Below, one piece after another: positions 4,946 to 24,541 of a stretch of DNA of 35,927 bases (position 1 is its first letter; each line of letters starts with the position of its first letter). The stretch comes from Muribaculaceae bacterium. Lineage in GTDB: Bacteria; Bacteroidota; Bacteroidia; Bacteroidales; Muribaculaceae. The DNA is taken from the NCBI GenBank assembly GCA_029071345.1, contig JAIEAO010000152.1:1-35927 (forward strand). Reading direction: 5' to 3'. Made by a program: the position numbers and the translations under genes. The notes under the pieces are model-generated. The model saw only the letters and a program-made list of their open reading frames with translations, did not search any database and was not told the DNA's origin.

Positions 4946-4979
4946 CTAATATATTGTGGAAGAGAAATATCAATCAAAA
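4946..4979 (-). promoter_or_regulatory. Candidate Bacteroidetes housekeeping-type promoter for rhaBATD
   Basis: Minus strand reads TTTTG-N21-TATATTAG, one mismatch from the TAnnTTTG -7 consensus with a -33 TTTG; it lies between GH3 and rhaB and overlaps the GH3 stop codon. Confidence 0.45.
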
Positions 4980-7328: not shown

Positions 7329-8351
7329 TTAAGATCGGGGCTTTACGTGGATTACATTTTTATTATCCGATGATTCATCACTTTCTGACGATATATATTC
7401 AAGAGATGTAGATTTCTTTATAAGTTGCATAATCTGTTCAAGTGAAGCATCGTCAAAAGTGGCATAAAAGAGTACATTCTGTAATTTTGGATCAACCTTA
7501 AATGTCATGCCGTAAATCTGTCCGAGACGTTTATAGACGTTACAGAGTGGTTCGTTCTTAAAAGCCAGACAACCATGACGCCACAATGTATTTTTCTCAG
7601 TGTTGCCAAGATATAAGCGGCCACACTTGATATTTTCATTGTAAACTATCATCTGTCCGGGGTTGAGAACTGACTGTGACAGACTATCGGTTACCAATAT
7701 AGATCCGTCGTTAAGCGTAACCGTTGTAAGTGAATCAGTTGGATAAGAACAAACGTTAAATTCCGTACCGATAGCTTCAACCGACAAGTTTCGTGTGTAG
7801 ACCACAAACGGGTGAGTGGCATCATGAGCCACATTGAAGAAAACCTCTCCTTTAAGATCTACTATCCTACGACCATCGGGTCTATCCTGACTATAGGTTA
7901 GCGAACTGCCACCGTTGAGCCATACTTCAGTGCTGTCCGGAAGAAAGGTGTGGACGCGAGTTCCATGAATTGCAATAATCTCTTGAGATACAGGTATAAA
8001 ATGTGATTCGCCGGAGGAAGATTTTTTTAAGAGAAACCCCAATGCTATGATCAATGGAATAAATAAAATGGCTGATGCTTTCTGAAAATAACGAGCGGAT
8101 TTGTAGAAAAAGTTGCGGTAGCGTAATCTTTTTATATTACCAATGACTTTTTCATAATGCGAAGATATATCCACCTCTGAATACTCCTCCGGATTTTCAG
8201 TCACTTCCCAAATTTTCTTCATAACAAGGAAATGCTCGGCAAATTCATCTGAAGAATTGATCAGATTTATAAGCGTGCTTTCTTCTTCAGAGGTTATCTC
8301 TCCGGCGAGATAACGAACAATTAAATCATCGTATAATTCAAAATGCCCCAT
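7329..8351 (-). CDS. FecR-family anti-sigma factor
   Basis: 340 aa; N-terminal cytoplasmic region, one TM segment (ASAILFIPLIIALGFLL), FecR-like core (VHTFLPDSTEVWLNGGSSLTYSQD..RIVDLKGEVFFNVAHDATHPFVVYTRNLSVEAIGTEFNV) and STN-like C-terminus; next to an ECF sigma gene. Confidence 0.93.
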   Translation of the reverse strand: MGHFELYDDLIVRYLAGEITSEEESTLINLINSSDEFAEHFLVMKKIWEVTENPEEYSEVDISSHYEKVIGNIKRLRYRNFFYKSARYFQKASAILFIPLIIALGFLLKKSSSGESHFIPVSQEIIAIHGTRVHTFLPDSTEVWLNGGSSLTYSQDRPDGRRIVDLKGEVFFNVAHDATHPFVVYTRNLSVEAIGTEFNVCSYPTDSLTTVTLNDGSILVTDSLSQSVLNPGQMIVYNENIKCGRLYLGNTEKNTLWRHGCLAFKNEPLCNVYKRLGQIYGMTFKVDPKLQNVLFYATFDDASLEQIMQLIKKSTSLEYISSESDESSDNKNVIHVKPRS

Positions 8352-8361
8352 AAACTCTTTA

Positions 8362-8928
8362 TTATTTTGATAAAAATGGAAAAAGTTTTGCTAATTCGGA
8401 TCTAAGTTCACGCACAATTTTTGTTACCCGAACTTCGACAGTGCGTCGTGAAACATGCATAATCTCAGCGATTTCATCATATTTCATGTGATCCCACCGA
8501 CTCATTTTAAAGGCTTTGACAGCATCAGTATCCAAGTTGTCAAGAGTGACCTTTATTATCTGCTCTAATTCGTTATAAAGCACTAATTTTTCAGCAGAAT
8601 CCAGTTCCTCTTTAATAGAGGCCAATGCATTTGCGATATGAGACTCCACTATCTTCTTGTGCTTTATAGCATCCAGACAGTCGTGACGAACACTTCTCAG
8701 AAGCCATCCTTTCAGGGAAGTCACTTTAATCCGGCGACGCTGTTCCCATAAATCGACAAATATACCTTGAACAATATCCTCCGCTTCCGACCGTTCGGCT
8801 ATCCATGAATTGCAATAGAGCACCAAACTATAGTAATACTTTGAAAAGATTGCATTGAAAGCTTTATGATCACTTTCGCGCAATCTTTCCAAAAGAATAT
8901 CGTCAGTCAGGGCGGAATACTCTTTCAT
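8362..8928 (-). CDS. ECF RNA polymerase sigma factor (Bacteroidetes sigma-70 type)
   Basis: 188 aa; region 2 (FNAIFSKYYYSLVLYCNSWIAERSEAEDIVQGIFVDLWEQR) and region 4 helix-turn-helix (MKYDEIAEIMHVSRRTVEVRVTKIVRELRSEL). Confidence 0.95.
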   Translation of the reverse strand: MKEYSALTDDILLERLRESDHKAFNAIFSKYYYSLVLYCNSWIAERSEAEDIVQGIFVDLWEQRRRIKVTSLKGWLLRSVRHDCLDAIKHKKIVESHIANALASIKEELDSAEKLVLYNELEQIIKVTLDNLDTDAVKAFKMSRWDHMKYDEIAEIMHVSRRTVEVRVTKIVRELRSELAKLFPFLSK

Positions 8929-8944: not shown

Positions 8945-9796
8945 TTAGTATTCCTCTACAATCCAGTCTTCAATTTGGCGTAAAACAATATCAAAACCGG
9001 GTTCAGAAACAGTCACATCAAACTTATATATGTTTCCCGACTTGAATTCGAACGGTCCGAGTTGTCTGGTAAATGTCATCCCTTTGAGAGTGCAGGCTAT
9101 AGAGAGATTACCAACCGAGCCGGGAAGGACGAAGTTCTCGCTGTGGTGGCCACCATCTGTTAAATTGACAGGAATCCGACCGGACACATCCTGTAATGAC
9201 AGTTGACCTGTAATCAAGTCGAAGTCTGCCTGTCCGGGAAGATTCTGGAATGCCATTGTCACACTCTTCAGATCCTCGTCAGTCACACCTTCACCTGCTT
9301 TAATGTCAAACATCACCTGTGCTAAAATATGTTTGAACTGAACTTTGACAGGTGCCAATGCCATATACTTATTGCGATTGGCGGAATACAGATAGTCGCT
9401 TTTTACAGCAGCTGCAGCGGTGGAAACATCAAGTGAGATGAGATTATTTTCAGATACTGTCTGATCGTAGGGCGTGTAGGCAAGAATATTTACTTTTGAC
9501 CCATCCTTGGGGTAGTGGAGCAGGTCGCCGGTATCAATCATGCCATCTGCATCAACCGACATTTTTAGGTTTGAGGCTATTAATTCATCAGATTCTGACG
9601 AAACCATGTAGACCCCGACTGCAGTACCGACCTCAATCGCTTCCGGCTTCTCTTTGTCATAAGGCACAATCTGAGCCTTGAGCTGAACAGCTACATCTGG
9701 CAGCTCTGTCTGACCTCCTTCATATATGTTCTCACAAGACGACAGAGATATTGCCGACAAGCCGATGGCGCAAATTGATAATAATTTAATTTTCAT
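8945..9796 (-). CDS. Fimbrillin-like lipoprotein (start revised to internal Met)
   Basis: ORF track start is 9856, but the ATG at 9796 gives MKIKLLSICAIGLSAISLSSCENIYEGG, a good lipoprotein signal peptide. Body has Mfa/FimA-like features (EVGTAVGVYMVSS, INILAYTPYDQT, PVKVQFKHILAQVMFDI). Confidence 0.75.
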   Translation of the reverse strand: MKIKLLSICAIGLSAISLSSCENIYEGGQTELPDVAVQLKAQIVPYDKEKPEAIEVGTAVGVYMVSSESDELIASNLKMSVDADGMIDTGDLLHYPKDGSKVNILAYTPYDQTVSENNLISLDVSTAAAAVKSDYLYSANRNKYMALAPVKVQFKHILAQVMFDIKAGEGVTDEDLKSVTMAFQNLPGQADFDLITGQLSLQDVSGRIPVNLTDGGHHSENFVLPGSVGNLSIACTLKGMTFTRQLGPFEFKSGNIYKFDVTVSEPGFDIVLRQIEDWIVEEY

Positions 9797-9815
9797 ATTT
9801 CCAAAGAATATATTG

Positions 9816-9861
9816 AAAACATGGGAGCGGCAGTGATCATGGGCTGACACCCCCATGTTTT
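9816..9861 (-). promoter_or_regulatory. Inverted repeat with two competing pairings between the two fimbrillin-like genes (possible attenuator or mRNA-processing structure)
   Basis: Perfect 10-bp inverted repeat AAAACATGGG (9816-9825) / CCCATGTTTT (9852-9861); a second CATGGG at 9838-9843 can pair with the same CCCATG (9852-9857). Confidence 0.5.
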
Positions 9862-9874
9862 ACAAATATAGGAA

Positions 9875-11722
9875 TTAATTATTAATCTTTACACAACGCA
9901 CGTTCAAAGCGTTGCAAGTGCTGTAATTATTCAGCTGACCCCAGCCATTATCAAATTGAGCAGCCTGATTCTTAAGCGGATAAGAAGGAGCAGCCATAGA
10001 GCCGGAGAAGAGCATAGCACTTGTAGTGTTTCCGAATGTACCGTCGAAGCGCATACGTCCACCTGCGGGATAGGTCGAGAGGGGATCGTTAACGAGTGTA
10101 TTGCCATCTACATATGAAGCCCAGGGAGACATACCGTTACGGTAGTTCGGCACCATCCAGCCTGCAGGCGAGGGATCGAATACCCCCTTCTCTCCTGTAG
10201 CTTCTACTGTCCAGTAGTTCGGACCATAAAGCAGATCCGCATTCTGGTCAGTTGTAAGCCAACTGTAAGGTTCGCCTTTCGATGTAACAAACAGGCCCGG
10301 GAAAGTCAGTATACGACGGGTTGACTGACCTTGGTTGTCACCCCAAATACCGTCTACAGTGTAGCTATAGGGATTGTTTTCAATATCATAAAGCGGGATA
10401 GTAGTGATTGAGACACCATCGGTGGGGAATTTGTCGGTGAATCCGGCATAAGGCTCATTGTTGCAGCCCTGATAATACATACCAATAGAGAGAGGATTGT
10501 TGACATCATTGCTCAACGCACCAAGATTGCGATCCATAAAGATATAATCATCTACGCCGTCGCCGTTATTGTCAACTCCTACAGTATTCTGCTCGGGGTC
10601 AAAATTAGTTACCCAGATGTGGTATGACCATACTTTATCACCACCCATTGTAACCGATACAAGAGCGTTACCTTCAATGTTACCGGCCTGTACGGTCACG
10701 GTGCTTTGTTCGCGCTGTGCGGCATCGGGATTGAGGGTCACGCTGCTGATAAGGCTCTGGTGATCCTGCCATATCAGAGTTGCACCAAGTTCACCGTCGT
10801 TTCTGAGGTTGCCGCCATTGATGTAAGGTATTTCACGCCATACCTTGAATGCTTTGAGAACCGGGAAAGTTACAGACTCACCGGGTTTTACAATATAGCA
10901 GTTGGGTAGGTCGGCCATCGAAACGAGGGTAGATGTTATGTTATAGCGATAAGCAAGTCCGGCGAATACATTTTCGTTAGCAAGTGAGTAGTTTTGAGTA
11001 TCATTACCGGCTCTCAGGACAATAGCGGCATCCTCTGCGACAATCTGCTCGGGAATGTAGGCGCGGTAATGCTTAGCTTCCATGAGATCCATTTTTACCG
11101 ATTTGACTTCGCTTCCAAGCTGCATCACATTCTCGGTTCCGAAACCGCCAAGATTGAATGAAGCAGTGGGGCAGAAACCATCTACTGTAAGATTGCTACC
11201 CGAACCGGCAACGATTTCGGCATCTAAAAGACCTAACTGGTGATAGAATGTGAGAGTGACAGTCTCGGTAGAGTTATCAATATCGGCTGTCTTGGCCATC
11301 ATAAGGTCATACATCGACGATGATGCGTCATAAGCAATAGCCTTCGGGTCAACATTCTCAGCATAGGGATAGTAAGCATAGAAATCAAGAGCGGTGCCAT
11401 CCTGGGGGAATGCCACATCCTTGTCAATCATCCATTGGCCATCGACTAATGTAAGTTTGTAATTGTCGGCATAGTTACCTGCAGAAGCGAGATCGGCAGT
11501 CTCCCCGGAGGCATGAACAACTGCAAACAAACCTACCTGGTCACCATTATCAAAGGTGGTTTTAAAATTGTCATCGGTAGTCACACGTGTTTGGCTTCCG
11601 GCTGTGACGAGCTCGAACTTGATTCCGGATACAGAATTTTGTGCGTTTGAAATCAATTCCTCATCTTGCGAACATGATGCAAGAATAAGTAGTGACGCAC
11701 TGAAGAAAATTAACTTTTTCAT
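9875..11722 (-). CDS. Fimbrillin-like (Mfa-like) lipoprotein with extended FISUMP-like C-terminal region
   Basis: 615 aa; lipobox LASCSQDEE; fimbrillin-like N-terminus (GSQTRVTTDDNFKTTFDNGDQVGLFAV, DFYAYYPYAENV, TLTFYHQLGLLDAEI); C-terminus with FMDRNLGALS, YYQGCNNEPYA and a terminal NVRCVKI. Confidence 0.8.
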   Translation of the reverse strand: MKKLIFFSASLLILASCSQDEELISNAQNSVSGIKFELVTAGSQTRVTTDDNFKTTFDNGDQVGLFAVVHASGETADLASAGNYADNYKLTLVDGQWMIDKDVAFPQDGTALDFYAYYPYAENVDPKAIAYDASSSMYDLMMAKTADIDNSTETVTLTFYHQLGLLDAEIVAGSGSNLTVDGFCPTASFNLGGFGTENVMQLGSEVKSVKMDLMEAKHYRAYIPEQIVAEDAAIVLRAGNDTQNYSLANENVFAGLAYRYNITSTLVSMADLPNCYIVKPGESVTFPVLKAFKVWREIPYINGGNLRNDGELGATLIWQDHQSLISSVTLNPDAAQREQSTVTVQAGNIEGNALVSVTMGGDKVWSYHIWVTNFDPEQNTVGVDNNGDGVDDYIFMDRNLGALSNDVNNPLSIGMYYQGCNNEPYAGFTDKFPTDGVSITTIPLYDIENNPYSYTVDGIWGDNQGQSTRRILTFPGLFVTSKGEPYSWLTTDQNADLLYGPNYWTVEATGEKGVFDPSPAGWMVPNYRNGMSPWASYVDGNTLVNDPLSTYPAGGRMRFDGTFGNTTSAMLFSGSMAAPSYPLKNQAAQFDNGWGQLNNYSTCNALNVRCVKINN

Positions 11723-11803
11723 TGATATTTAAAAGGTTTGATAATATTTGCTCCTGACGAGATTTGTAAAATTACCGCTGATGCAGGCTAAATCTGTATA
11801 TAA

Positions 11804-11830
11804 GGCGATTCATAAGTACATTCACACATT
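11804..11830 (-). promoter_or_regulatory. Candidate ECF-sigma promoter, site D (drives fimbrillin-sigma-fecR-GH3 unit)
   Basis: Minus strand reads AATGTGTG-N12-AATCGCC-TTATATA; shares sequence and 12-nt spacer with three other sites in the window. Confidence 0.75.
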
Positions 11831-11876
11831 TTTTTGAAAAAATAAATAATTTAACTTTTTGCAGGTGTTATAAAGC

Positions 11877-11903
11877 GATGTGTGAAAAAACATCTCAATC
11901 GCC
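11877..11903 (+). promoter_or_regulatory. Candidate ECF-sigma promoter, site A (drives GH63-like/GH99-like genes)
   Basis: GATGTGTG-N12-AATCGCC-TATTATA, 40 bp upstream of the ATG at 11944. Confidence 0.8.
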
Positions 11904-11943
11904 TATTATATGAAACTAACCGACACTCATCAAATTCAAACTT

Positions 11944-13455
11944 ATGAACATTGCCAAATCAATTGTTTTATTCGCATTAGCGTTTATAACATCGTCTACC
12001 TTTGTGCAGGGGCAGATCAAGGGGGATCTTCCTAAACACCGGCTACCATCGCCAATCTATTCGCCTGAGCCAAGTTTTGTCGATCTATACTGGAAGGCAT
12101 GGGAGTTGGCATGGGATAGAGTGACATATCAGGAAGGGGTGCCTCAGTCGCCTTATATGGACGAAAACCTGTGGGAAGATACCATCTGGATATGGGATAC
12201 TGAATTCATGGTGTTATTCTGCCGATACGCTCCCGATGTGTTTCCCGGCATTCAGAGCCTTGATAACTTCTATAAATGTATACTCGACAAGTACCCGACG
12301 TCGCTGCGTATTCAGCATCCCGATAATCCGCCCTTCTATTCATGGGTGGAATGGGAATACTATAAAATGACCGGCGACCGCGACCGATTGCAGAAGGTGC
12401 TCATTGACAACCGTTGGCTTCAACGTCACTACCAATGGTTCGATTCGCTTAAGATTGGCACTAAACTGCATTTTGAGCACGCCCCGATCCTGTTGCAGAA
12501 AGAGGGAATCGGCTATCTATGGGGAAATATCCAAAGCGGCATGGATAACACACCGCGCACTTCCGACGCCATATCAGACAAGGAGATGCTTTGGATGGAC
12601 GCATTGGCGCAGCAGGCTCTGTCGGCCCTTTACATAAGCCGTATCGCCAAAGAACTTGGCCGCGAGGATATCGCCGAGGAATACGACTCGCTCTATGCCG
12701 ATGGCAAGCGGTTGCTCAATGATTATTATTGGGATGAAACGGATGGATTCTACTATGACCTCAACAGTAGCGATAATACTCACATCAAGGTACGCACACC
12801 GGCTGTGTACTGGACCATGCTGGCGGAGGTGCCGGACCGTGAACAGGCTTCGCGAGTAGCTGCTTTTGCTGCCGATTCGCTTGAATTTGGTGGCAAATAT
12901 CCCTGGCCAACCGTTTCGCGTCGCCATCATGGCTATGAACCCGAGACCGGTGATTACTGGCGCGGTGGCATTTGGTTGCCCACTGCCTATATGTCGACCA
13001 AAGCTCTTGAGGCATACGGCTACCACGACCTTGCCGATGAGAATGCTCTGAAGCTACTCAGACAGATGGATGAGACATACCGCACCTATAGCCCCGCGAC
13101 CATTTGGGAGGCTTACTCACCAACGGCGCCCCGGCCATCAGAGCATCTGTGGACCTACAAGCCGCGTGAGCGTGTGCGACCTGACTTTTGTGGTTGGTCA
13201 GCTCTTGGCCCTATCTCGCTTTTTATAGAGAATGTCCTGGGCTTTCACAACATCGATGCCCAGGCTCGTCTTGTCGAATGGCGAAAAAAAGGGGATGGAA
13301 ATCAGGGCATCCGCAATCTGCGGTTTGGCGATACAATAACGGATATCGTAGCCAACGGCTCGAAATTGACCGTCAGCAGTAACCAACAGTATACACTGCG
13401 CGTCAACGGTAAAAACTATAAAGTCAAAAAAGGGAACAATAAATTCAAAATATGA
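11944..13455 (+). CDS. Secreted (alpha/alpha)6 glycosidase, GH63/MGH1-like (clan GH-G type)
   Basis: 503 aa with signal peptide; ENLWEDTIWIWDTEFMVLFCRYAP, NIQSGMDNTPR, YWRGGIWLPTAYMSTKALEAYG and a C-terminal W-rich FCGWSALGPISL are typical of GH63/trehalase-like catalytic domains. Confidence 0.75.
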   Translation: MNIAKSIVLFALAFITSSTFVQGQIKGDLPKHRLPSPIYSPEPSFVDLYWKAWELAWDRVTYQEGVPQSPYMDENLWEDTIWIWDTEFMVLFCRYAPDVFPGIQSLDNFYKCILDKYPTSLRIQHPDNPPFYSWVEWEYYKMTGDRDRLQKVLIDNRWLQRHYQWFDSLKIGTKLHFEHAPILLQKEGIGYLWGNIQSGMDNTPRTSDAISDKEMLWMDALAQQALSALYISRIAKELGREDIAEEYDSLYADGKRLLNDYYWDETDGFYYDLNSSDNTHIKVRTPAVYWTMLAEVPDREQASRVAAFAADSLEFGGKYPWPTVSRRHHGYEPETGDYWRGGIWLPTAYMSTKALEAYGYHDLADENALKLLRQMDETYRTYSPATIWEAYSPTAPRPSEHLWTYKPRERVRPDFCGWSALGPISLFIENVLGFHNIDAQARLVEWRKKGDGNQGIRNLRFGDTITDIVANGSKLTVSSNQQYTLRVNGKNYKVKKGNNKFKI

Positions 13456-14708
13456 AACGATTTAACTTCAATGACATTAAATGTGTGGCTGCTGTGGGCT
13501 TAACGTTATGGCTTACCGGTCTGCAGACCCTCGAAGCCAGAAACATCACAAAAGACACCGACGGCTATGTGGTCTCGGCCTACGTTTGGCCATCATGCCA
13601 TAACGATACACTTGGCCAAAAATATCTTTGGCCCGATGGCCGGGGCGAGTGGGAAGTAATCAAAAAAGGACATCCCAGATTTGAAGGTCATCAGCAGCCC
13701 AAGCAACCGCTTTGGGGCTATGAAATGGACGACGACCCCGAAGTTGTGGCGCGCTGGATCGACACGGCAAAAAAATATGGTGTAAACAACTTTGTCTACG
13801 ACTGGTATTGGTTTATGAACGGGCCATACCTCGAGGGTGCCCTCAACGATGGCTTTTTAAAGGCCGCCAACAACGAGGATATGTCGTTCTATATAATGTG
13901 GGCAAACCATTTTGTCAAGAAAAACTACTGGAACTGGCATAAGTATGGAGATGATGAGTCAATTTTGTTTGATCCTGTTCTCGATGAGAAAAACTATAAA
14001 ATAGTGGTCGACAGGGTCATCAATCAATACTTCACCAAGCCCAATTATCTTAAGATCGATGGGAAACCTGTGTTTGGCATATTCAGCATCAAAAACTTTC
14101 TGCGCGGTTTTGACAACGACCTTGAAAAAGGCGCAAAGGCCCTGCAATATTTTGACAAAAAAGCCCGTGAAGCCGGCTTTGCAGGTGTTCATTTTCAGGA
14201 AATGCCCGGCAACGGCGAGGAGCTCACCGAAGAAGATATAGCCCGCATAAAGGAATCTCACAAGAAACTCGGTATCAACAGTGTCGCATTCTATAACATG
14301 GGCGGATTTGACTGCGACTATATGACTCACGGCGCCAACAGCATCAACATCCGTGATCAGTGGGATAAGGAAATCGACACTCCCGTCTTCCCGACCGTAT
14401 CTGTCGGCTGGGACGATACACCACGCTTCCCGCGCAAAGGCGCCAAGGATGTTACCCGATTCAATCATACCCCTCAATCTTTCGCCGGATTCCTGCAGGC
14501 AGCTAAGGAATATGTAGACTCTCATCCCGACCAGCCTAAGATCATCAATATCAATGCCTGGAACGAATGGATCGAAGGGAGTTACCTATTGCCCGACCGC
14601 CTCAACGGATTTGGCTATCTTGAAGCCGTCAGCGATGTCATGAACGGCAAATATAGCAAGGATAAATATAGGGATAATGACGAATATGACGAGAAATTCA
14701 AAAAGTGA
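13452..14708 (+). CDS. Secreted GH99-like / WbsX-type domain protein
   Basis: 418 aa; signal peptide; VVSAYVWPSCHNDTLGQKYLWPDGRGEWEVIKKGHPRFEGHQQPKQPLWGYEMDDDPEVVARWIDTAKKYGVNNFVYDWYWF and INAWNEWIEGSYLLP are typical of GH99-like/WbsX domains; ATGA overlap with the upstream gene. Confidence 0.8.
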   Translation: MKRFNFNDIKCVAAVGLTLWLTGLQTLEARNITKDTDGYVVSAYVWPSCHNDTLGQKYLWPDGRGEWEVIKKGHPRFEGHQQPKQPLWGYEMDDDPEVVARWIDTAKKYGVNNFVYDWYWFMNGPYLEGALNDGFLKAANNEDMSFYIMWANHFVKKNYWNWHKYGDDESILFDPVLDEKNYKIVVDRVINQYFTKPNYLKIDGKPVFGIFSIKNFLRGFDNDLEKGAKALQYFDKKAREAGFAGVHFQEMPGNGEELTEEDIARIKESHKKLGINSVAFYNMGGFDCDYMTHGANSINIRDQWDKEIDTPVFPTVSVGWDDTPRFPRKGAKDVTRFNHTPQSFAGFLQAAKEYVDSHPDQPKIININAWNEWIEGSYLLPDRLNGFGYLEAVSDVMNGKYSKDKYRDNDEYDEKFKK

Positions 14709-14734
14709 TGTGTGGAAAGCTCACACAATCGCCT
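14708..14734 (+). promoter_or_regulatory. Candidate ECF-sigma promoter, site B (drives susC-susD)
   Basis: GATGTGTG-N12-AATCGCC-TTATAA; begins at the last base of the upstream stop codon, 58 bp before the susC-like ATG. Confidence 0.8.
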
Positions 14735-14792
14735 TATAAGCGAATAAAAATTTATTTTCGATTCTAATACCGCTTACCTAACAAATAAACCA

Positions 14793-17700
14793 ATGCTAAA
14801 CAACAATCGCAACCAAAAGGGGACAACATGGCCCTGGCGATTCTTGCGTTTCTGCTTGATCCTTGTCACTGTCCTTTGTTTTACCGGACAGCTCATGGCT
14901 CAGGAACCGACAGTAACCCTGAAACGCCAAAACATCACTTTATCAAAGGCATTTGACCTAATTCATGAACAGACCGGATACAATTTCGTCTACAACGAAG
15001 GTGTAGGCAATCTTGATGCCAAGGTAAATCTTAACGTTACAAATCAAACCGTTAGTAACACTCTCCGGCAGCTTTTGGCCGATAAGGACATAAGTTTTGA
15101 GATGGATGAAAAGTATGTCATACTGAAGAAAAAACCTAAGGCGGTGTCTTCAGAAATGACGGTAAAAGGCGTGGTGACTGATTCAGAGGGAGAGCCTCTA
15201 ATCGGTGCTACGGTTTTGATTAAGAGAACGAAGCAGGGAGTAGCGACAAATATAGATGGTCAGTTTGAAATTTCCGCAGCAAAAGGTGATATTCTCTCGT
15301 TTAGATATGTGGGATATACACCTAAAGATGTGCGTGTAACCGGACCCGAGCTCAAAGTTGTTCTTGAGGAAGCGGAAGTGGCTCTGAACCAGGTGGTAGT
15401 AATCGGTTACGGCTCAATGAAAAAGAAAGACCTCACGGGGTCCGTCAGCACCATCACCGGTGCCACTGTCACTGACCGCAAGGTATCATCCCTCTCCAAC
15501 GCCCTTCAGGGTGCGATGGGTGGCGTTACGGTTACGCGCAGCAACGGTGGACCGGGAGCGGCTGCCGACATTAAGATTCGAGGCATAACCACTATCGGTG
15601 ACAGCAGCCCTCTGATTATCGTCGATGGTGTTCCTGTCGATGATATAAATGATGTCAACCCTCAGGATGTGGAAAACGTCACAGCCCTTAAAGATGCTGC
15701 TTCAGCAGCCATATATGGATCTCGCGCTGCATCAGGAGTTATTCTCATCACCACCAAACGTGCGAGTGAAGGCAAGGTCTCATTGTCATATTCTTATGAA
15801 TATGGTTATGAAAAACCGACCGCACAGCCCGATTATGTCGATGCGACACGCTATATGGCGATGGTGAATGAGCTGCGCTGGAATGATGCGGGCAACGGTC
15901 CTGATCATTTCCCCGTTTATATTCCCGTCGTTATTGATGACTATGATTATCTTAACGCACGCTTCCCCAATGACTTCCCGAATACAGACTGGCGCGGAAT
16001 GCTCCTCAAGAATCATTCAAACCGTCAGTCACACAACTTCCGAATCTCGGGTGGCAACAAGACCGTGCGCACCAATGCCTCTATCGGTTATGACATGTCG
16101 GATGGTCTTTATGCAGACCGTGACTACTCTCGTCTGACCATTCGAATGAATAATGACATAACTATCAATAAATATCTTTCCGCCTCATTTGATCTCAATG
16201 TAAAGCGCAGCGAGTATAAAAGTCCGGTTTATGATCCGATGTATGCAGTCTACACAATGCCGGCCATCTATCCGGCCCTGTGGGAAGACGGACGTATTGC
16301 CGACGGAAAGTCAGGAGATAACCCTTACGCGGCTCTTAACTACGGAGGCACTTCGAAAAATAATTATAATCAGGTAGGTGGTAAGGCAGCCATTTATGTT
16401 ACGCCCATCGATGGACTTAAACTCTCCGCAATCATCTCCCCAATATGGAATAATTCGTCAGGCAAGTCATTCCGCAAGCGTATCGAATATTTTGCTGCTG
16501 ATGATCCTGACAACCTGATCGGAGCAATCAACGGCTTCGCTTCGACCAAACTTGATGAATCCCGCAACAATAATTACAGCATCACCTCACAGTTTATTGC
16601 CAATTACGACAATACTTTCGGTAAACACTCTGTAAGCCTGATGGCCGGTTACGAAGACAACTCATACAAGACTGAAGGTTTGTGGGCTGCCCGCGACAAG
16701 TTCGCACTTACGGAATATCCCTATCTCGACCGTGGCAATGCCGACTACCAGACGAATGGTGGCAATGCGGCGCACACCGCATATCGCTCGATATTCGGCC
16801 GCGCAATGTATAATTTCGACGGACGATATCTTCTTCAGGCCAACCTGCGTTGCGACCGTTCATCACGTTTCGATAAGAAATACCGTTCAGGAGTCTTCCC
16901 CTCAGTGTCGGGAGGTTGGGTGATAACCAGGGAACCTTGGTTTGAAAGATTTAGCCTTAACCCTTATCTCAATCAGCTGAAAGTACGCGCGTCTTACGGT
17001 TTGCTCGGTAATGACCGTGTGGGAAATTATCCTTATCTGCCTCTACTTAATTATACAGATGCCCTTTTCTGGGAAGGCTCAAACATTGTGTCTTCCACCA
17101 CCGCCGCGCAATGGTCGTATGCGATCCGTGATATATCCTGGGAGACAACAAAGACATTCGGCATAGGTCTTGATCTGGCTTTCTTCAACAACCGTCTTAC
17201 TGTCACCGGCGACTGGTATTATAAGATTACGAAGGATATGATTCTTGACATCGACATTCCTGATTATGTAGGTTATGACAACCCGTCGCAGAACACCGGC
17301 AAAATGAAAACCACCGGTTTTGAAATCGAGGCCCGTTGGAATGATGCTATCGGCGACTTCCACTATAGCGTATCGGCCAACTTGAGCGATTTCAAATCGC
17401 GGATGGGTTATCTGGGCGGAAATCAGTTCCTCGGTGACCAGATCAAAATGATGGGCAGCTACTTTAATGAGTGGTACGGCTACCGCACCGACGGTCTGTT
17501 CCAGACTCAGGAAGAGATAGACAACTATCCCGTGATGAACAGCAGTGTGCGCCCCGGTGACATCAAATATCTCAAAGCCGATCCGGAAGACACCACACCG
17601 ATATCGCCCGACAAAGACCGCGTACTGCTCGGTAATTCTCAGCCACGTTATCAGTATGGCCTTACCCTCACGGGGGGATGGAAAGGTTTCGACCTGAGCA

Positions 17701-18131
17701 TTACCTTACAAGGTGTCGGGAAACAACTTAAACGCAAGTCTGCCACTATGGTGCAGCCTCTGCGTGATAACTTCGGTAATATTCCCAAACTTATCGACGG
17801 CCGCTATTGGAGCAATTACAATACCCCCGAGCAGAATCTGAAGGCTGAATATCCCCGTCTGACTTCCACACAGGCTTCTTACAACTACGCAATGTCAGAC
17901 TTCTGGTTGATCAACAGCCACTATTGCCGTCTGAAAAACATATCGCTCGGCTACACAATCCCCTCGAATATAACAAAGAAGGCCTATATCCAAAGTCTTC
18001 GATTTTATATCGCGGCGAATGATCTGTTTTGTATAACTAATTATCCCCGCGGATGGGATTATGAGGGCTACGGCTCTACAGGTTATCCTATAACCAAATC
18101 CTTTATCTGTGGTGCAACCATTAATTTCTGA
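14793..18131 (+). CDS. SusC/RagA-family TonB-dependent outer-membrane transporter with N-terminal STN signalling domain
   Basis: 1112 aa; STN-like segment (VTLKRQNITLSKAFDLIHEQTGYNFVYN), carboxypeptidase-like domain (VKGVVTDSEGEPLIGATVLIK), plug (VVVIGYGSMKKKDLTGSVS, IKIRGITTIGDSSPLIIVDGVPVDDIN), C-terminal beta barrel. Confidence 0.96.
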   Translation: MLNNNRNQKGTTWPWRFLRFCLILVTVLCFTGQLMAQEPTVTLKRQNITLSKAFDLIHEQTGYNFVYNEGVGNLDAKVNLNVTNQTVSNTLRQLLADKDISFEMDEKYVILKKKPKAVSSEMTVKGVVTDSEGEPLIGATVLIKRTKQGVATNIDGQFEISAAKGDILSFRYVGYTPKDVRVTGPELKVVLEEAEVALNQVVVIGYGSMKKKDLTGSVSTITGATVTDRKVSSLSNALQGAMGGVTVTRSNGGPGAAADIKIRGITTIGDSSPLIIVDGVPVDDINDVNPQDVENVTALKDAASAAIYGSRAASGVILITTKRASEGKVSLSYSYEYGYEKPTAQPDYVDATRYMAMVNELRWNDAGNGPDHFPVYIPVVIDDYDYLNARFPNDFPNTDWRGMLLKNHSNRQSHNFRISGGNKTVRTNASIGYDMSDGLYADRDYSRLTIRMNNDITINKYLSASFDLNVKRSEYKSPVYDPMYAVYTMPAIYPALWEDGRIADGKSGDNPYAALNYGGTSKNNYNQVGGKAAIYVTPIDGLKLSAIISPIWNNSSGKSFRKRIEYFAADDPDNLIGAINGFASTKLDESRNNNYSITSQFIANYDNTFGKHSVSLMAGYEDNSYKTEGLWAARDKFALTEYPYLDRGNADYQTNGGNAAHTAYRSIFGRAMYNFDGRYLLQANLRCDRSSRFDKKYRSGVFPSVSGGWVITREPWFERFSLNPYLNQLKVRASYGLLGNDRVGNYPYLPLLNYTDALFWEGSNIVSSTTAAQWSYAIRDISWETTKTFGIGLDLAFFNNRLTVTGDWYYKITKDMILDIDIPDYVGYDNPSQNTGKMKTTGFEIEARWNDAIGDFHYSVSANLSDFKSRMGYLGGNQFLGDQIKMMGSYFNEWYGYRTDGLFQTQEEIDNYPVMNSSVRPGDIKYLKADPEDTTPISPDKDRVLLGNSQPRYQYGLTLTGGWKGFDLSITLQGVGKQLKRKSATMVQPLRDNFGNIPKLIDGRYWSNYNTPEQNLKAEYPRLTSTQASYNYAMSDFWLINSHYCRLKNISLGYTIPSNITKKAYIQSLRFYIAANDLFCITNYPRGWDYEGYGSTGYPITKSFICGATINF

Positions 18132-18136
18132 TAGTT

Positions 18137-19843
18137 ATGAAGTTTTATTCTAATATACTCACTGCGGCCGCTCTTTCGTTATTGTGTTCCTGCGCAGACC
18201 TTGACCTGCAGCCGCTTGATACCGGTTCGAGCGATTCATGGTACAAAACCGAAGATGAAATAAAGGCCTCGATCAACGGCCTATACCGCACTGACTTCTT
18301 CTCGCTCGAAAACTTTCAATGGAGCGATGATCACCAATCGCGTGACCGCCTTAATGAAATGACGGCTGCCACGGTCAATGGCGAAACTCATGCCGTAACC
18401 GAAATGTGGCAAGTATGCTACAAATCGATAGCACGTTGCAATATTCTTCTGGAGAAATTGCAGAATTATCAGGCGATAGGACTTTCAGAGGAACGCGCCA
18501 AACTTTATCGTGCCCAGGTACTTTTCGTAAGGGCCACGCAGTATGCCCGTCTCACATCATACTTCGGAGATGTAGTGTGGGTTGATTCCGAGCTTACGAT
18601 TGAAGATGCTTTCAAGATGGGTCGCACGGATCGTGCCGAAGTTATGGAGCATGTCTACGCGGACTATGATGAAGCAGCTCAATACCTGCCATTATCCTAC
18701 GGCACTCAAAAGGAATTAGCCACCAAAGCGGCAGCCCTCGGTCTTAAGGCACGATATGCCCTCTACAATGAGGATTGGGAAATTTCCGCTGCCGCTGCCA
18801 AAGAGTGCATGGAATTAGGATCACATCAGTTATATCCCGACTTCGAGAAACTTTTCCTTTCCTCGACTCGCCACGCTTGCGAGAATATCCTGTCGTGGCC
18901 GACATCGCTTGAACTCGAAATTTACGGCGAAAGTCCGGGAAATGCTATGGGTTTCCTTCCGCGCTGCCGTGGGGGTTATGCGTCAGAGTATCCTTCATGG
19001 GATTTGTTCGCCTCTTTCCTATGCACGGATGGTCTTCCTATCGACGAATCCCCACTGTTTGATCCTCAAAATCCTTTTAAGAACCGAGATCCGCGTTGCG
19101 CCGCTACGATCGTGGAGTTCGGCACAGAACATTGTGGTGTAATCTACGATCCGAATCCTATGGTAACTCAGGTCTACAGTTCCGTAGCCGGAAAAATGGT
19201 TACTAATCTTGACTGCAAGTCTGGCAGCCCGTATGCATCATATAACGGTCTGCTTCGCAAGAAAGGGATTGACGAGAGCTGGATCAACGATGGCTCGTTC
19301 AAGGTGGCCTTTGACATTGTTTTCCTTCGCTATGCCGAAGTGCTTCTCACTTATGCCGAGGCTAAAATAGAGGCGGGTGAAATTGACAATAGTGTCCTTG
19401 AAGCCATCAACCGGGTGCGTGCCCGTGCTTATAAGGCTGATTACACCAATACCAGAGCTTATCCGGCAGTGAAAACTACTGATCGCGAACAATTACGTAC
19501 CATCGTGCGCACGGAACGCAGAATGGAGTTTGCCTACGAAGGTCTTCGCCGCATGGACATTATACGCTGGCGCATTGCCGAGAAAGTTCTCAATCAGCCT
19601 GACTATGGACTGCTCGACAAAGACCTCCTCACCTCTAAACTCATTGACAAACAGTTGTGGTTCTGGCCCGAAACACCCGACATTGACGAGAACGGATCGG
19701 CCGATTTCTCATCTTTATATGGGCAAGGTTATTGTAAGATCATAACCCGTCGTCAGTTTGATGAGTCAAAGAATTATTTATGGCCCATCCCATCACAGGA
19801 AGTTATTACTAACCCTTATCTCGGACAAAATGATAATTACTAA
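18137..19843 (+). CDS. SusD/RagB-family nutrient-binding outer-membrane lipoprotein
   Basis: 568 aa; lipobox LLCSCADLDLQPLD; SusD features (SINGLYRTDFFSLENFQWSDD, VLLTYAEAKIEAG, EAINRVRARA, RTIVRTERRMEFAYEGLRRMDIIRWRIAE); follows susC. Confidence 0.96.
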   Translation: MKFYSNILTAAALSLLCSCADLDLQPLDTGSSDSWYKTEDEIKASINGLYRTDFFSLENFQWSDDHQSRDRLNEMTAATVNGETHAVTEMWQVCYKSIARCNILLEKLQNYQAIGLSEERAKLYRAQVLFVRATQYARLTSYFGDVVWVDSELTIEDAFKMGRTDRAEVMEHVYADYDEAAQYLPLSYGTQKELATKAAALGLKARYALYNEDWEISAAAAKECMELGSHQLYPDFEKLFLSSTRHACENILSWPTSLELEIYGESPGNAMGFLPRCRGGYASEYPSWDLFASFLCTDGLPIDESPLFDPQNPFKNRDPRCAATIVEFGTEHCGVIYDPNPMVTQVYSSVAGKMVTNLDCKSGSPYASYNGLLRKKGIDESWINDGSFKVAFDIVFLRYAEVLLTYAEAKIEAGEIDNSVLEAINRVRARAYKADYTNTRAYPAVKTTDREQLRTIVRTERRMEFAYEGLRRMDIIRWRIAEKVLNQPDYGLLDKDLLTSKLIDKQLWFWPETPDIDENGSADFSSLYGQGYCKIITRRQFDESKNYLWPIPSQEVITNPYLGQNDNY

Positions 19844-19856
19844 ACAATTAGACCGT

Positions 19857-21374
19857 ATGAATATCATAGCAAAAATCTCACTGATATCTTTTGCCGCAAT
19901 CGCGCCGTTCATAGTTTCGGCTTGCACAACAGAATATTTGACCTACAATCATAATCCCGGTGTGCCTGAAACGCCAGCTGAGCCGGAACCCGAACCGGAG
20001 ATGCCGGATGTGATGCCGGTCGGTACATATAAACTTCTCACTGATCAGCCGGCACAGGTGATAGAAGGACTCGGTTTTGAAATTCAGAATGAAATCACTG
20101 CCGCACCCGACGTAAACAAGCCAAGCAAATATTACGGCGTACCGCTTGACCTCGTTCCATCAGAGCGTAAACGCCTTGCCGAGGAAATGCTCAAGGGATT
20201 CCGCTATATGCGTATGGGAATGGGTGTATGGTATCAGGGTCAGACAGATGACCGCAAAAATTTTGTGGAACGTATCCCCGGTCAAAACGAGGCTCTCGTG
20301 CAACTTATGAAAGATGCCGGAGTTGAAGGAATCTCACTTGAATATTGGTCGCCTGCCACTTACTGGAAGTCAAACGGCAGTTTTAACGACGGTACGCTGA
20401 AAAGCTTTGACGACGATTTCCTTGATCAGTTTACCGATGCCCTTGTCAACGACATAAAATATTTCAAGAGCAATGGATTTAATGTGTCGACATGGGGATT
20501 GCAGAATGAATGTCAGTATGAATCCGTAGGGTATGCGCATTGCCATTACACTCCCGACCAATTCGTTAAAGTGTTTGGGATTGCAGCTCCGAAAGTACGT
20601 GCTCTCGATCCAAATATCGAAATCATCTATGACACCAACAGCGGAAACAATGGTGAGTACGGTGAAAAACTATGGCGCGAGAATTCCCAACTGCTCCCGT
20701 ATGTTGATGCATGGGTATATCACCGCATAGGTGATGATTCCGACTTCGTGATGGACCGCTGCGAAGAATACAAGGCCAACAATCAGGGGAAGCCCATCTA
20801 TCAGAATGAGTATGAATATTTCAACGATCAGATGCCTACGCACAGCTATGAGTGGTTTATGGTCAACACAGCCCAGTCGATTATGAACTGGATGACGTTT
20901 ATTGATTCGCCCAAGTGGTACTGGCTCCATGCTCTCAAGGCTGTCGATGACCACACTGACCGCGACGGATTCGGCCTTGGCATCTGGCGTCCGAGCTATG
21001 CCAACGACAGCCACGACTATCCGACGCTCAAACATGGTCACTTCACGTTCAATTGGCAGAACTTCAACGGTATTGCCGGCTTCCTGAAATATATGCCGTG
21101 GGATTCGCGCCGATATAAGGTACACGAGGATGAGGCCTTGCACAATAACCGCATTATGGCGTGGAAGACCCCTGAAGGAAAATTTGTCATCGCCCTCACC
21201 AACCGCTCCGATGAATGGTATGAGTTCAAGGTAGATCTTGACAAAAATATGAAACTCAACGGTCACCGGTATAATAAAAACGGTATTGACCAGCCTCTTG
21301 GAAGCACCGATGGTAACTCAACATTGTCTGCAAAGGTGCGTCCGTGGAGCATTGAATTTTGGGTTGAAGAGTGA
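19857..21374 (+). CDS. Surface lipoprotein glycosidase, GH30-like (clan GH-A)
   Basis: The ORF track's 19758 start overlaps susD; ATG at 19857 gives MNIIAKISLISFAAIAPFIVSACTTEY (lipoprotein signal). Contains IEGLGFEIQNE, STWGLQNECQYES (candidate acid/base), PIYQNEYEYF (candidate nucleophile) and a C-terminal beta-sandwich; Pro/Glu-rich tether after the lipobox. Confidence 0.7.
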   Translation: MNIIAKISLISFAAIAPFIVSACTTEYLTYNHNPGVPETPAEPEPEPEMPDVMPVGTYKLLTDQPAQVIEGLGFEIQNEITAAPDVNKPSKYYGVPLDLVPSERKRLAEEMLKGFRYMRMGMGVWYQGQTDDRKNFVERIPGQNEALVQLMKDAGVEGISLEYWSPATYWKSNGSFNDGTLKSFDDDFLDQFTDALVNDIKYFKSNGFNVSTWGLQNECQYESVGYAHCHYTPDQFVKVFGIAAPKVRALDPNIEIIYDTNSGNNGEYGEKLWRENSQLLPYVDAWVYHRIGDDSDFVMDRCEEYKANNQGKPIYQNEYEYFNDQMPTHSYEWFMVNTAQSIMNWMTFIDSPKWYWLHALKAVDDHTDRDGFGLGIWRPSYANDSHDYPTLKHGHFTFNWQNFNGIAGFLKYMPWDSRRYKVHEDEALHNNRIMAWKTPEGKFVIALTNRSDEWYEFKVDLDKNMKLNGHRYNKNGIDQPLGSTDGNSTLSAKVRPWSIEFWVEE

Positions 21375-21414
21375 TTTGTTAAATGTAATAGTAGGTAAAA
21401 AAGGTTGTTTAATG

Positions 21415-21447
21415 TGGGCGGGGACAAACCAGTCTTCGCCCATTTTT
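21415..21447 (+). terminator. Rho-independent terminator-like hairpin between the GH30-like gene and the downstream lipoprotein gene
   Basis: GGGCGGGGAC-AAACCA-GTCTTCGCCC (10-bp stem with two G.U pairs, flanked by a T-A pair) followed by ATTTTT. Confidence 0.7.
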
Positions 21448-21461
21448 AAAAGTAATCCAAA

Positions 21462-23915
21462 ATGAGCACAATTAAATCCATAAACACGATCCTATTCACA
21501 TCAGTACTTTTCTGCAGTTGTGCAGCCACCACTACCACCCGCACACCTCTCGAGAGCGATAAGCCTAATTATGGAGGTGTTTTTCCTCACCTCGCATTTT
21601 ATAACAACGAGGGTGAATGTGGCACCGGCGCCGTGGTTCCCTGGCAGGGGAAACTTTGGGCGATTACTTACGGACCACATCTTCCGTGGGGATCAAGTGA
21701 TAAACTATATGAAATTGATGATACTCTCAACATCAATGTGCGCCCGGAGAGTGTCGGCGGAACCGCAGCTGACCGAATGATTCACCGTGAGAGCAACCAG
21801 CTTATCATCGGTCCTTATTTTATCGATAGTCTGTGCAATGTCAGAACCATGTCTTACGACAATGCACAAGGCCGTTACACCGGAGTCTGCCGACACCTGA
21901 CTGACCCGGCCAACAAAGTATATATTGCCACGATGGAGGAGGGATTCTATGAGGTGGATGTCAACACTCTGAAATCCCGCGAAATTTATCCTGATGCGAA
22001 TGTCGGCAACGGTCATGATGACACCGGAGTGAATCCACAGAATGACCTTCTTCCCGGAGCACACGGCAAGGGGCTTTATAGCGGTCAGAATGTGATGGTG
22101 TTCTCAAACAACGGTGAAGCTGTTCCTGAAGCGCTTGAGAAGTTTAATATCCCGTCGGGTTGTCTCGCCGAGTGGGACGGGAAGGATTGGAAAGTGATAC
22201 GCCGCAATCAGTTTACCGAAGTGACAGGCCCCGGAGGAATCTATGGCAGCGATCCTAAAGCTCCCATATATGCACTCGGATGGGATTACAAGTCCATCAT
22301 TCTGGCTATGCGCGATAAAGGGGAGTGGTCATTTTACCGACTCCCCAAGGCAAGTAATTCTTACGATGGTGCGCATGGTTGGAACACGGAATGGCCACGT
22401 ATCCGAGAGGTCGGGACAGCTGAAAATCCCATGAAACTTATGACCATGCATGGGATGTTCTGGGAATTCCCGCAGGAATTTAATACAGGTAAAACATCCG
22501 GGATTAGGCCACTTTCAGCTTATTTGAAAGTCATCGGAGATTTTACCCGTTGGAATGACAACCTGGTGTTTGGTTGTGATGACTCGGCAAAAAAAGAATT
22601 TCTGAACAAACGCCGCATTAAGGGTAATATCGCCGGCCCCGGACAGAGTAATTCAAACTTATGGTTTGTAGAACCTGCGCGCCTGAATAATTTAGGACCG
22701 ACTAATGCATCCGGATCGGTTTGGTTTAATGATGATGTAGAAGCAGGCAAGCCGAGCGAAGCAATGCTTTTTGCCGGATGGCCCAAACGTTGCGCATGGC
22801 TTAGGAATGATGGAGATGAAAATGTAAAATTCACTTTTGAAGTATCCGACGGCCGCGGGAAATGGTCTGCACTCAAAAGTGTAGATCTGAAGGGAAATAG
22901 TTCAGTCTTTGTTCCCTTCAACGAGGGTGACAAAGGGGAGTGGATTCGCCTTAAATCTGACAAGCCGACCACTGTAAGCGCCTTATTCTCTTATTCCGAC
23001 ACCGACACCCGAACCACCAAATCAAGTTCTATTTTCAACGGTTTGACTGCGGTCAACTCTACACCTGCTTCTACAGGTCGTCTGTACTGTCTGGGTAATA
23101 ATGCCCGTAAATTGGGTGTTGCAACCGATAAAGGATACTTTGAGCTGGATGGGAATATGAATTTTTCTCCTGAGAGTAACGCCGAGGTCATTGACTTTAT
23201 CAATAAAAACATGACCATTACGAACGAAGGTCTGGAAATCACCGACGGCTCCGTACTTATTATCGATGATAAAGGGCGACGCTGGAGACTCCCTAAGGGA
23301 TCGGAGGATTTTACTCCTCTCATTCGTGACAACAAGATGCGGATTTGCCGTGAAGTTTCCACCGAGCGCGACCTTCTCAACTGTCATGGCACCTTCTATG
23401 AACTTCCGGCTGAAAACGCAGACGGATTTGCCAAGATCAGACCGATTTCATCACATAAATTCCGCATCAATGACTATGGTTCCTATCGCGGAATGTTGGT
23501 TATGACAGGCCTATCGGATTCCGAAAGCAACAATCCCCGCATAATAAACTCTACCGATGGCAAGATGTCCCTTTGGTGTGGCTCAATAGATGACCTGTGG
23601 AAACTTGGCAAACCTGTAGGCAACGGAGGGCCATGGGTGGAGGAGTCAGTTAACGCCCATGAATATTCCGATCCATACCTCATAGGTTTTTATGACGATC
23701 GTATGCTGAATATCTCACATAAGTCTGCCGAGCCGGTAAAATTCACGGTTGAGGCGGATCCCACCGGTGATGGGAACTGGGTGCAATATGGCGTGTTTGA
23801 GGTTAATCCGGACGATTCATTTTTCCACAAATTCCCTGATGCATTCCAGGCCCGCTGGATTCGCTTTAAAACTGACAAACCTTGTGTGGCAACCACCTGG
23901 CTGGAATATAAATAA
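21462..23915 (+). CDS. Large secreted lipoprotein of unknown family with internal duplication (candidate glycan-active or glycan-binding protein)
   Basis: 817 aa; lipobox LFCSC; two similar long segments visible in the translation (WSFYRLPKAS..HGMFWEFP..IRPLS..VKFTFEV..WIRLKSDKPTTV and RRWRLPKGS..HGTFYELP..IRPIS..VKFTVEA..WIRFKTDKPCVA). Confidence 0.75.
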   Translation: MSTIKSINTILFTSVLFCSCAATTTTRTPLESDKPNYGGVFPHLAFYNNEGECGTGAVVPWQGKLWAITYGPHLPWGSSDKLYEIDDTLNINVRPESVGGTAADRMIHRESNQLIIGPYFIDSLCNVRTMSYDNAQGRYTGVCRHLTDPANKVYIATMEEGFYEVDVNTLKSREIYPDANVGNGHDDTGVNPQNDLLPGAHGKGLYSGQNVMVFSNNGEAVPEALEKFNIPSGCLAEWDGKDWKVIRRNQFTEVTGPGGIYGSDPKAPIYALGWDYKSIILAMRDKGEWSFYRLPKASNSYDGAHGWNTEWPRIREVGTAENPMKLMTMHGMFWEFPQEFNTGKTSGIRPLSAYLKVIGDFTRWNDNLVFGCDDSAKKEFLNKRRIKGNIAGPGQSNSNLWFVEPARLNNLGPTNASGSVWFNDDVEAGKPSEAMLFAGWPKRCAWLRNDGDENVKFTFEVSDGRGKWSALKSVDLKGNSSVFVPFNEGDKGEWIRLKSDKPTTVSALFSYSDTDTRTTKSSSIFNGLTAVNSTPASTGRLYCLGNNARKLGVATDKGYFELDGNMNFSPESNAEVIDFINKNMTITNEGLEITDGSVLIIDDKGRRWRLPKGSEDFTPLIRDNKMRICREVSTERDLLNCHGTFYELPAENADGFAKIRPISSHKFRINDYGSYRGMLVMTGLSDSESNNPRIINSTDGKMSLWCGSIDDLWKLGKPVGNGGPWVEESVNAHEYSDPYLIGFYDDRMLNISHKSAEPVKFTVEADPTGDGNWVQYGVFEVNPDDSFFHKFPDAFQARWIRFKTDKPCVATTWLEYK

Positions 23916-23955
23916 GAATATGATGATAAAATGACGGATATTGTGCAATATTGAG

Positions 23956-23982
23956 GATGTGTGTTTTCTCGTCATAATCGCC
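23956..23982 (+). promoter_or_regulatory. Candidate ECF-sigma promoter, site C (drives the small secreted CTD protein)
   Basis: GATGTGTG-N12-AATCGCC-ATATATAA, 43 bp upstream of the ATG at 24026. Confidence 0.8.
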
Positions 23983-24025: not shown

Positions 24026-24541
24026 ATGAGAAAATTATTTCTTTCATTTGTAGTGTCATGCTTATTCACTGCTCTGTCAGCTCAAGCTGAAACAGGCTTT
24101 GACAGTGATATTACGAATTGGTCGTATGTGGAAAACGGTACAATTTATTCTACCGTAATTATTGAAAATCCAGTCGGCGTAGTCATTACAGTGCCGGGGA
24201 GCGAGACCGAAATTGAACTCACTGAAGGAAGCAACACTCTTAAGGTGCCTCTTTCACAGCCCGTTTATGAAGTGAGCGCTAAAGATGGTTACGCTATAAC
24301 TGTCAAAGTAGGTGACAAAGCCTACGTTTACGACAATGAGCCTATCGTAATCAACTGCACAAAACCGGCTCCAGTATATATATCTGCCACCGGCAACACA
24401 TCCACTAACTGCCTGACTATTTCAGCTAACGATGCTGAAGTAAAGTATTATGATCTCAATGGTTTGACGGTCAAACAACCTCAACCCGGAAAAATTTATA
24501 TCAGGGTGTCAGGCTCTGAAGTGCGGAAAGTGAAATTCTGA
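24026..24541 (+). CDS. Small secreted protein with T9SS-like C-terminal sorting domain
   Basis: 171 aa; signal peptide MRKLFLSFVVSCLFTALSAQA; C-terminus VKYYDLNGLTVKQPQPGKIYIRVSGSEVRKVKF fits the '(Y)YDLNG..V..P..GIYI...G...KV' Bacteroidetes C-terminal secretion-domain pattern. Confidence 0.6.
   Translation: MRKLFLSFVVSCLFTALSAQAETGFDSDITNWSYVENGTIYSTVIIENPVGVVITVPGSETEIELTEGSNTLKVPLSQPVYEVSAKDGYAITVKVGDKAYVYDNEPIVINCTKPAPVYISATGNTSTNCLTISANDAEVKYYDLNGLTVKQPQPGKIYIRVSGSEVRKVKF

Follow-up and report, generated by a model that had tools for sequence, protein, structure and literature searches.

A conserved two-box element before operons of a Muribaculaceae polysaccharide-utilization locus as the putative promoter of its own ECF sigma factor

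Genes and two-box elements of the locus

The window analyzed here is a 35,927-nucleotide stretch of DNA from a Muribaculaceae bacterium (GenBank assembly GCA_029071345.1, contig JAIEAO010000152.1), which was recognized as a polysaccharide-utilization locus (PUL) from its Pfam and NCBIfam matches and the list of open reading frames (ORFs). It contains four copies of a two-box element, ATGTGTG-N12-AATCGCC, which is examined as the candidate promoter of an extracytoplasmic function (ECF) sigma factor encoded in the same locus. Bacteroides thetaiotaomicron possesses 50 ECF sigma factors, nearly half of which are located inside sugar-utilization loci (PMC12596196). A comparative study judged the prediction of ECF promoters to be challenging and left such promoters out (PMC3878776).

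The minus strand carries rhamnose genes and an operon of five genes, the first of which encodes a fimbrillin-like protein (Pfam Mfa_like_1; 9875–11722) that is 63–82% identical in the orthologous loci described below. A second fimbrillin-like protein (Pfam; 8945–9856) is encoded 16 bp upstream of the sigma gene, according to the ORF list. The ECF sigma factor of 188 aa (8362–8928) matched Pfam regions 2 and 4 and scored 133 bits against TIGR02985 (Sig70_bacteroi1), which is over the curated cut-off of 126.4. It is followed by a FecR-type transmembrane anti-sigma factor (7329–8351; Pfam FecR and FecR_C; 46–60% identical in the orthologous loci) and by a GH3 glycosidase as the last gene (4974–7316; Pfam; 61–76% identical). 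On the plus strand, an MGH1-like glycoside hydrolase (11944–13455) forms an operon with a WbsX-family protein (13452–14708), both assigned by Pfam. Next to them lie a SusC transporter (14793–18131; Pfam STN and Plug; 913 bits against TIGR04056), a SusD lipoprotein (18137–19843; Pfam), two proteins without a family match, and a 171-aa protein with a signal-peptide-like N-terminus and no family match (24026–24541), after which GH31, GH36, GH2, GH3, and esterase genes are arranged. The N-terminal STN signalling domain of SusC corresponds to residues 63–114. The parts of a FecI/FecR/TonB-transducer system are hence all present, as the ECF sigma factor adjoins FecR and the receptor SusC bears the STN domain. 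The Pfam and NCBIfam matches of the window proteins revealed no further DNA-binding regulator.

The original prediction, which was made from the letters of the window alone, described four copies of the element with a spacer of exactly 12 nt, and all four were found with this spacer. Element 1 (AATGTGTG-N12-AATCGCC and then TTATA; 11804–11830, minus strand) is located upstream of the Mfa_like–Mfa_like–sigma–FecR–GH3 operon, and element 2 (GATGTGTG-N12-AATCGCC and then TATTA; 11877–11903, plus strand) precedes the genes of the MGH1-like glycosidase and the WbsX-type protein. Element 3 (GATGTGTG-N12-AATCGCC and then TTATAAGCGAATA; 14707–14733, plus strand) precedes susC, and element 4 (GATGTGTG-N12-AATCGCC and then ATATA; 23956–23982, plus strand) precedes the gene of the 171-aa secreted protein. 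The predicted positions were reproduced for elements 1, 2, and 4, while element 3 begins at 14707 instead of 14708. All four are intergenic and oriented toward the downstream start codon, at distances of 81, 40, 59, and 43 bp from the end of AATCGCC for elements 1, 2, 3, and 4, respectively; this range of 40–81 bp agrees with the 40–82 bp that had been proposed. As also predicted, there is no copy before the rha, GH31, and GH3/esterase genes.

A dyad search of the upstream regions, performed without prior input, ranked the element first in the window. Among all 7+7 dyads of the window with spacings of 8–20, none besides the element occurred in more than 3 copies, those with 3 copies were shifts of the element, and 30 dinucleotide shuffles of the window gave a maximum of 2–3 copies. 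Genome-wide scans, which consisted of pattern matches only, detected the exact ATGTGTG-N12-AATCGCC at these four places alone in the whole assembly (2.56 Mb, 86% complete) and once in 110 other congeners. When 2 mismatches were allowed, 14 matches were obtained genome-wide against 7 for the reversed control, and the excess was composed of the four locus sites and scattered single matches. The copies are confined to the locus, with no crowd of unrelated matches in the genome. An Rfam scan of the window gave no match.

Conservation of the element together with the sigma factor

Orthologs of the sigma factor were identified in three further loci, denoted L027 (G147:C15), L028 (G141:C50), and L018 (G060:C35), with identities of 74–75% for the first two and 55% for the third. 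Two blocks are conserved among them, Mfa1-Mfa2-sigma-FecR-GH3 and susC-susD-ORF538-ORF817-ORF171, while the glycosidases are rearranged. Comparison of the orthologous upstream regions, which had been suggested as a check, revealed that the element is kept at the same operons. It is located before the sigma operon and before susC in all four loci (the window, L027, L028, and L018), and before the 171-aa gene in 4/4 genomes, for which the ortholog copies are found in L058, L060, and L062. For the MGH1-like gene it was detected in both loci where this gene was found, namely the window and L028, the latter being the only ortholog locus with the gene. Unprompted dyad discovery ranked the element first in L028, and in L027 and L018 it belonged to a small number of shared dyads.

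A total of 14 sites was thereby obtained in the four loci, and one stray copy in G147 was added to construct a 15-site matrix, ATGTGTg-N12-RR-TCGCC-TTATA. In this matrix, ATGTG and TCGCC do not vary, the T after ATGTG and the TTATA tract hardly vary, and a weak RAAT appears at the expected start position. The spacer carries almost no information over the 15 sites, consistent with the prediction that its sequence is not conserved. The core A-TGTGT-g...TCGCC-TTATA of the predicted boxes was retained, whereas the strict AATCGCC was not, being A/G-A/G-TCGCC in the orthologs. The third G060 site (L062:5896) reads TGTGTC-N14-TCGCC. Sites scored for distance lie 40–134 bp upstream of start codons. 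When 397 genomes of the family were scanned, 9 exact matches to TGTGTG-N14-TCGCCTTAT were obtained, of which 8 belonged to the four sigma-bearing genomes and 1 to G326.

The stray copy of G147 is located outside the PUL (L181:1500-1790, G147:C2:99038-99328). It represents a duplicated susC promoter and leader, with 78% identity to the susC promoter region of that genome. The next approximately 290 nt contain no ORF, and further down an inverted repeat (GAGCGGAGAG...CTCTCCGCTC) is present. This copy may be a remnant or may belong to a transcript that is not translated.

Promoter geometry and residues of the sigma clade

Loci of more distant sigma relatives (28–41% identity), picked by the sigma factor alone, were also examined. 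A regular expression allowing four spacings gave matches outside the orthologs only at the ortholog spacing. Locus L071 holds TGTGGG...ACGTCTT before fecR and susC, L069 holds TGTGG/T...TGTCTT three times, and further such matches were obtained. The C144 sigma locus of the window's own genome (L021) holds TGTGCC-N14-ACGTC before its susC. In 168 upstream regions, the pattern TGTG-N17-[CT]G[CT]C was found 18 times at that spacing, as compared with 0–5 times (mean of approximately 1) at the other spacings from 8 to 29; similarly, GTGG-N16-CGTC was found 11 times at its spacing and at most once elsewhere. The sites of the relatives precede susC- and fecR-sized genes. On a maximum-likelihood tree of 37 sigma factors, 17 of the 27 sigma factors in one supported clade have such sites, and all 10 outside it lack them. 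Their presence requires 6 changes on this tree against 12.6 in shuffles, and 0 of 500 shuffles were as low. These comparisons suggest that a TGTG-N17-YGYC geometry is common to a clade of Bacteroidales sigma factors associated with SusC/FecR genes, most of which would use TGTGG and CGTC, and this group TGTGTG and CGCC. Judged from sequence, the window element is a CGCC variant of a putative clade-wide TGTGG-N16-CGTC promoter and not a one-off. If true, the clade-wide spacing rule would make ECF-controlled PUL regulons predictable from genome sequence, and the element gives a readable rule for spotting similar promoters elsewhere.

Several observations weigh against this reading. At the stringency applied, 10 of the 27 clade members lack a site of the wider motif. 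Its letters were selected once the first set of loci had been inspected, and loci outside that set added only a few same-spacing matches (3 in short loci, then 1). The strict TGTGGG-N15-CGTCTT was not enriched in 198 genomes of the order, giving approximately 29 matches and more in the reversed control. For TGTGG-N13-19-CGTCWTA, five ECF-rich genomes gave 18 matches, a few of them at N16 and with no clear peak. Since the wider patterns are not enriched genome-wide, the wider rule is visible only in the locus context. Among the orthologs themselves, the search match to the sigma gene of L018 was marked as containing a stop, though the reading frame listed for this gene runs uninterrupted over 184 aa.

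The structure of the sigma factor was modeled by AlphaFold2 (mean predicted local distance difference test score, pLDDT, of 87). In this model, domain 2 fits region 2 of sigmaE bound to the −10 (4LUP, 1.9 Å), and domain 4 fits region 4 of sigmaE bound to the −35 (2H27, 1.2 Å). The modeled loop 63–71, placed between helices 46–62 and 72–109, corresponds to L3 of sigmaE, whose residues 63–72 form a pocket for the flipped master nucleotide (PMC6372665); L3 swap experiments are reviewed in PMC8103513. L3 is one residue shorter in the four sigma factors of the CGCC group alone, as compared with sigmaE and 17 other aligned relatives. In helix 2.4, the CGCC group has R-H/Y where most relatives have Q-N. 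The L3 and helix 2.4 differences come from a single clade and therefore represent one evolutionary event, so that they constitute a correlation and not proof. With this natural change of promoter letters pairing with specific sigma residues, a lead for experiments is obtained. We lean moderately toward the view that the TGTG-N17-YGYC grammar is read by the whole SusC/FecR-linked sigma clade across Bacteroidales families, and that orthogonality is reached via small letter changes (CGTC to CGCC) coinciding with the shorter L3 and the H/Y of helix 2.4. The residue equivalent to His54 of sigmaL (approximately R64; PMC6372665) was also considered as a cause of the T-to-C change at −12, and was rejected on the ground that it is nearly invariant in the relatives. 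In L069 of G431, three sites of the same geometry with a TGTC −10, two of them divergent, are located at 7578-7658 and 10660-10686, which makes this locus a good candidate for matching promoter letters to sigma residues.

Reading of the element as a sigma-dependent promoter

The element has the architecture of an ECF promoter, that is, two boxes with a fixed spacing in the correct orientation upstream of start codons. It also has a −10 of the CGT/CGTC type with an AT-rich tract, which is TCGCC-TTATA here and contains CGTC or TGTC in the relatives. The likeness to promoters of Escherichia coli sigmaE and Mycobacterium tuberculosis sigmaL lies in the two boxes, the fixed spacing, and the CGT-type −10; the difference is that the −10 of the window is CGCC, while theirs is CGTC or CGTG. 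The third −10 base in this ortholog group is C rather than T. The −35 box of the sigmaE and sigmaL promoters is of the GGAAC type, as opposed to TGTGTG in the window element. The −10 of ECF promoters is numbered as C−14, G−13, and T−12, with the master nucleotide at −11 (PMC6372665), and CGT-type −10 boxes are described as typical of ECF sigma factors (PMC9723704). The idea of a dedicated ECF-sigma promoter put forward in the original prediction is supported by the locus confinement, the conservation in orthologs, the co-distribution with the sigma factor, the ECF-like geometry and −10 letters, and the clustering on the sigma tree. Since relatives retain the element at corresponding places and the sigma clade has its spacing in common, we infer that the sigma factor encoded in the locus (8362–8928) very probably uses the element as its promoter.

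An alternative is that the element represents an operator of an ordinary activator or repressor encoded elsewhere, such as a hybrid two-component system (HTCS) or a LacI/AraC-type protein, acting with the housekeeping sigma factor. Regulators of this kind often run PULs (PMC3878776), and an operator could take the form of a conserved two-part site with a constant spacing. We regard this as improbable, as no such regulator, including an HTCS match, was found among the window proteins, and the element tracks the sigma factor across genomes and its geometry tracks the sigma tree. In addition, TGTGTG and TCGCC bear no resemblance to one another and form neither inverted nor direct repeats, unlike the direct repeats of HTCS operators (PMC3878776). 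Likewise, the intergenic gaps with the four sites lack the housekeeping (sigma-ABfr) box, TAnnTTTG at −7, which is present in two other gaps, ahead of GH31 (24617) and of the second GH3 (32551). The latter boxes suggest that the downstream enzymes are expressed apart from the sigma regulon, and transcription of the GH31-GH36-GH2 genes probably comes from a promoter of their own or from read-through.

It is slightly less probable still that the sites are promoters of another ECF sigma factor of the cell, or common to several, with the local pair being one of several inputs. The genome holds approximately 20 matches of the TIGR02985 type, and a distant sigma factor, SigW-1, was reported to cross-control PUL59 (PMC12596196). 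On the other side, sites are hardly ever found in genomes that lack an ortholog of the local sigma factor, and the operon of this sigma factor bears a site in 4/4 genomes. Moreover, L021 is the sole paralog locus of the same genome with the geometry and has CGTC, not CGCC, and no match at the 17-nt spacing was found in the paralog loci L146-L153. A small dispersed repeat, or copies of a duplicated leader, is a hardly credible source of the sites, for although the stray G147 copy (C2:99038) is such a duplicate of the susC promoter and leader, the spacers and flanks of the 14 locus sites share almost no sequence outside the boxes, and the sites are absent elsewhere in the genome and hold their position before orthologous genes.

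With the element taken as the promoter of the local sigma factor, sigma region 4 would read TGTGTG as the −35 box, and region 2 would read TCGCC-TTATA as the −10 box together with the melting region next to it. By the fixed distance, the boxes would be set as far apart as the two sigma domains, which leaves the intervening sequence free to vary. When the C of CGCC is taken as −11, transcription is predicted to start near 11793 (minus strand), 11914, 14744, and 23993. From the domain content, a glycan bound by the STN-bearing SusC may signal to FecR, which would then release the sigma factor. RNA polymerase with this sigma factor would fire four operons, namely those of the transporter, the MGH1-like/WbsX enzymes, the small secreted protein, and sigma/FecR. 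The conserved element suggests that the sigma/anti-sigma operon belongs to its own regulon, by which a feedback loop may be formed.

Two-box promoters read by an ECF sigma factor of a FecR/SusC system are already a known kind of regulation. FecI-FecR-FecA signalling and the SusC-linked PUL24 of B. thetaiotaomicron (BT1877/BT1876) share with the window an ECF sigma factor, a FecR anti-sigma factor, and an STN-bearing TonB-dependent receptor. They differ from the window, where sigma and FecR sit in a fimbrillin-like operon bearing the element. For PUL24, rapid amplification of 5′ cDNA ends (5′ RACE) in an anti-sigma mutant identified a 5′ end, 291 nt before BT1875 and without a housekeeping promoter, which was proposed to be sigma-dependent (PMC11501099). 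The Bacteroides PM2 and B. fragilis EcfO motif are likewise non-housekeeping promoters proposed for ECF sigma factors (PMC7366714, PMC12596196), while PM2 differs in having TGTT near the −10 and in being tied to oxidative stress genes (PMC12596196). Flavobacterium psychrophilum SM6 is similar in its CGT −10 box attributed to an ECF sigma factor and in that one sigma/anti-sigma pair is targeted; its targets include type IX secretion genes and not PULs, and no TGTG −35 is described in the consulted text of that report (PMC9723704). Ryan et al. (2020) stated that no motif was known for any ECF sigma factor of B. thetaiotaomicron (PMC7366714). No earlier report of the present motif, or of a promoter consensus for PUL-linked Bacteroidota sigma factors, was found in the open-access papers searched, and papers beyond these may already report one.

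Three further features of the locus were observed. The fimbrillin-like (Mfa_like_1) pair (8945-11722) heads the sigma/anti-sigma operon in 4/4 genomes, which is an odd partner for a PUL regulator. The two proteins encoded behind susD (19758-21374 and 21462-23915) are large and without a Pfam or NCBIfam match, and are 69–87% conserved in the orthologous loci; they occupy the slot where surface glycan-binding lipoproteins usually sit. The 171-aa gene (24026-24541) diverges fastest in its block, with 29–50% identity, yet keeps its own element in 4/4 genomes.

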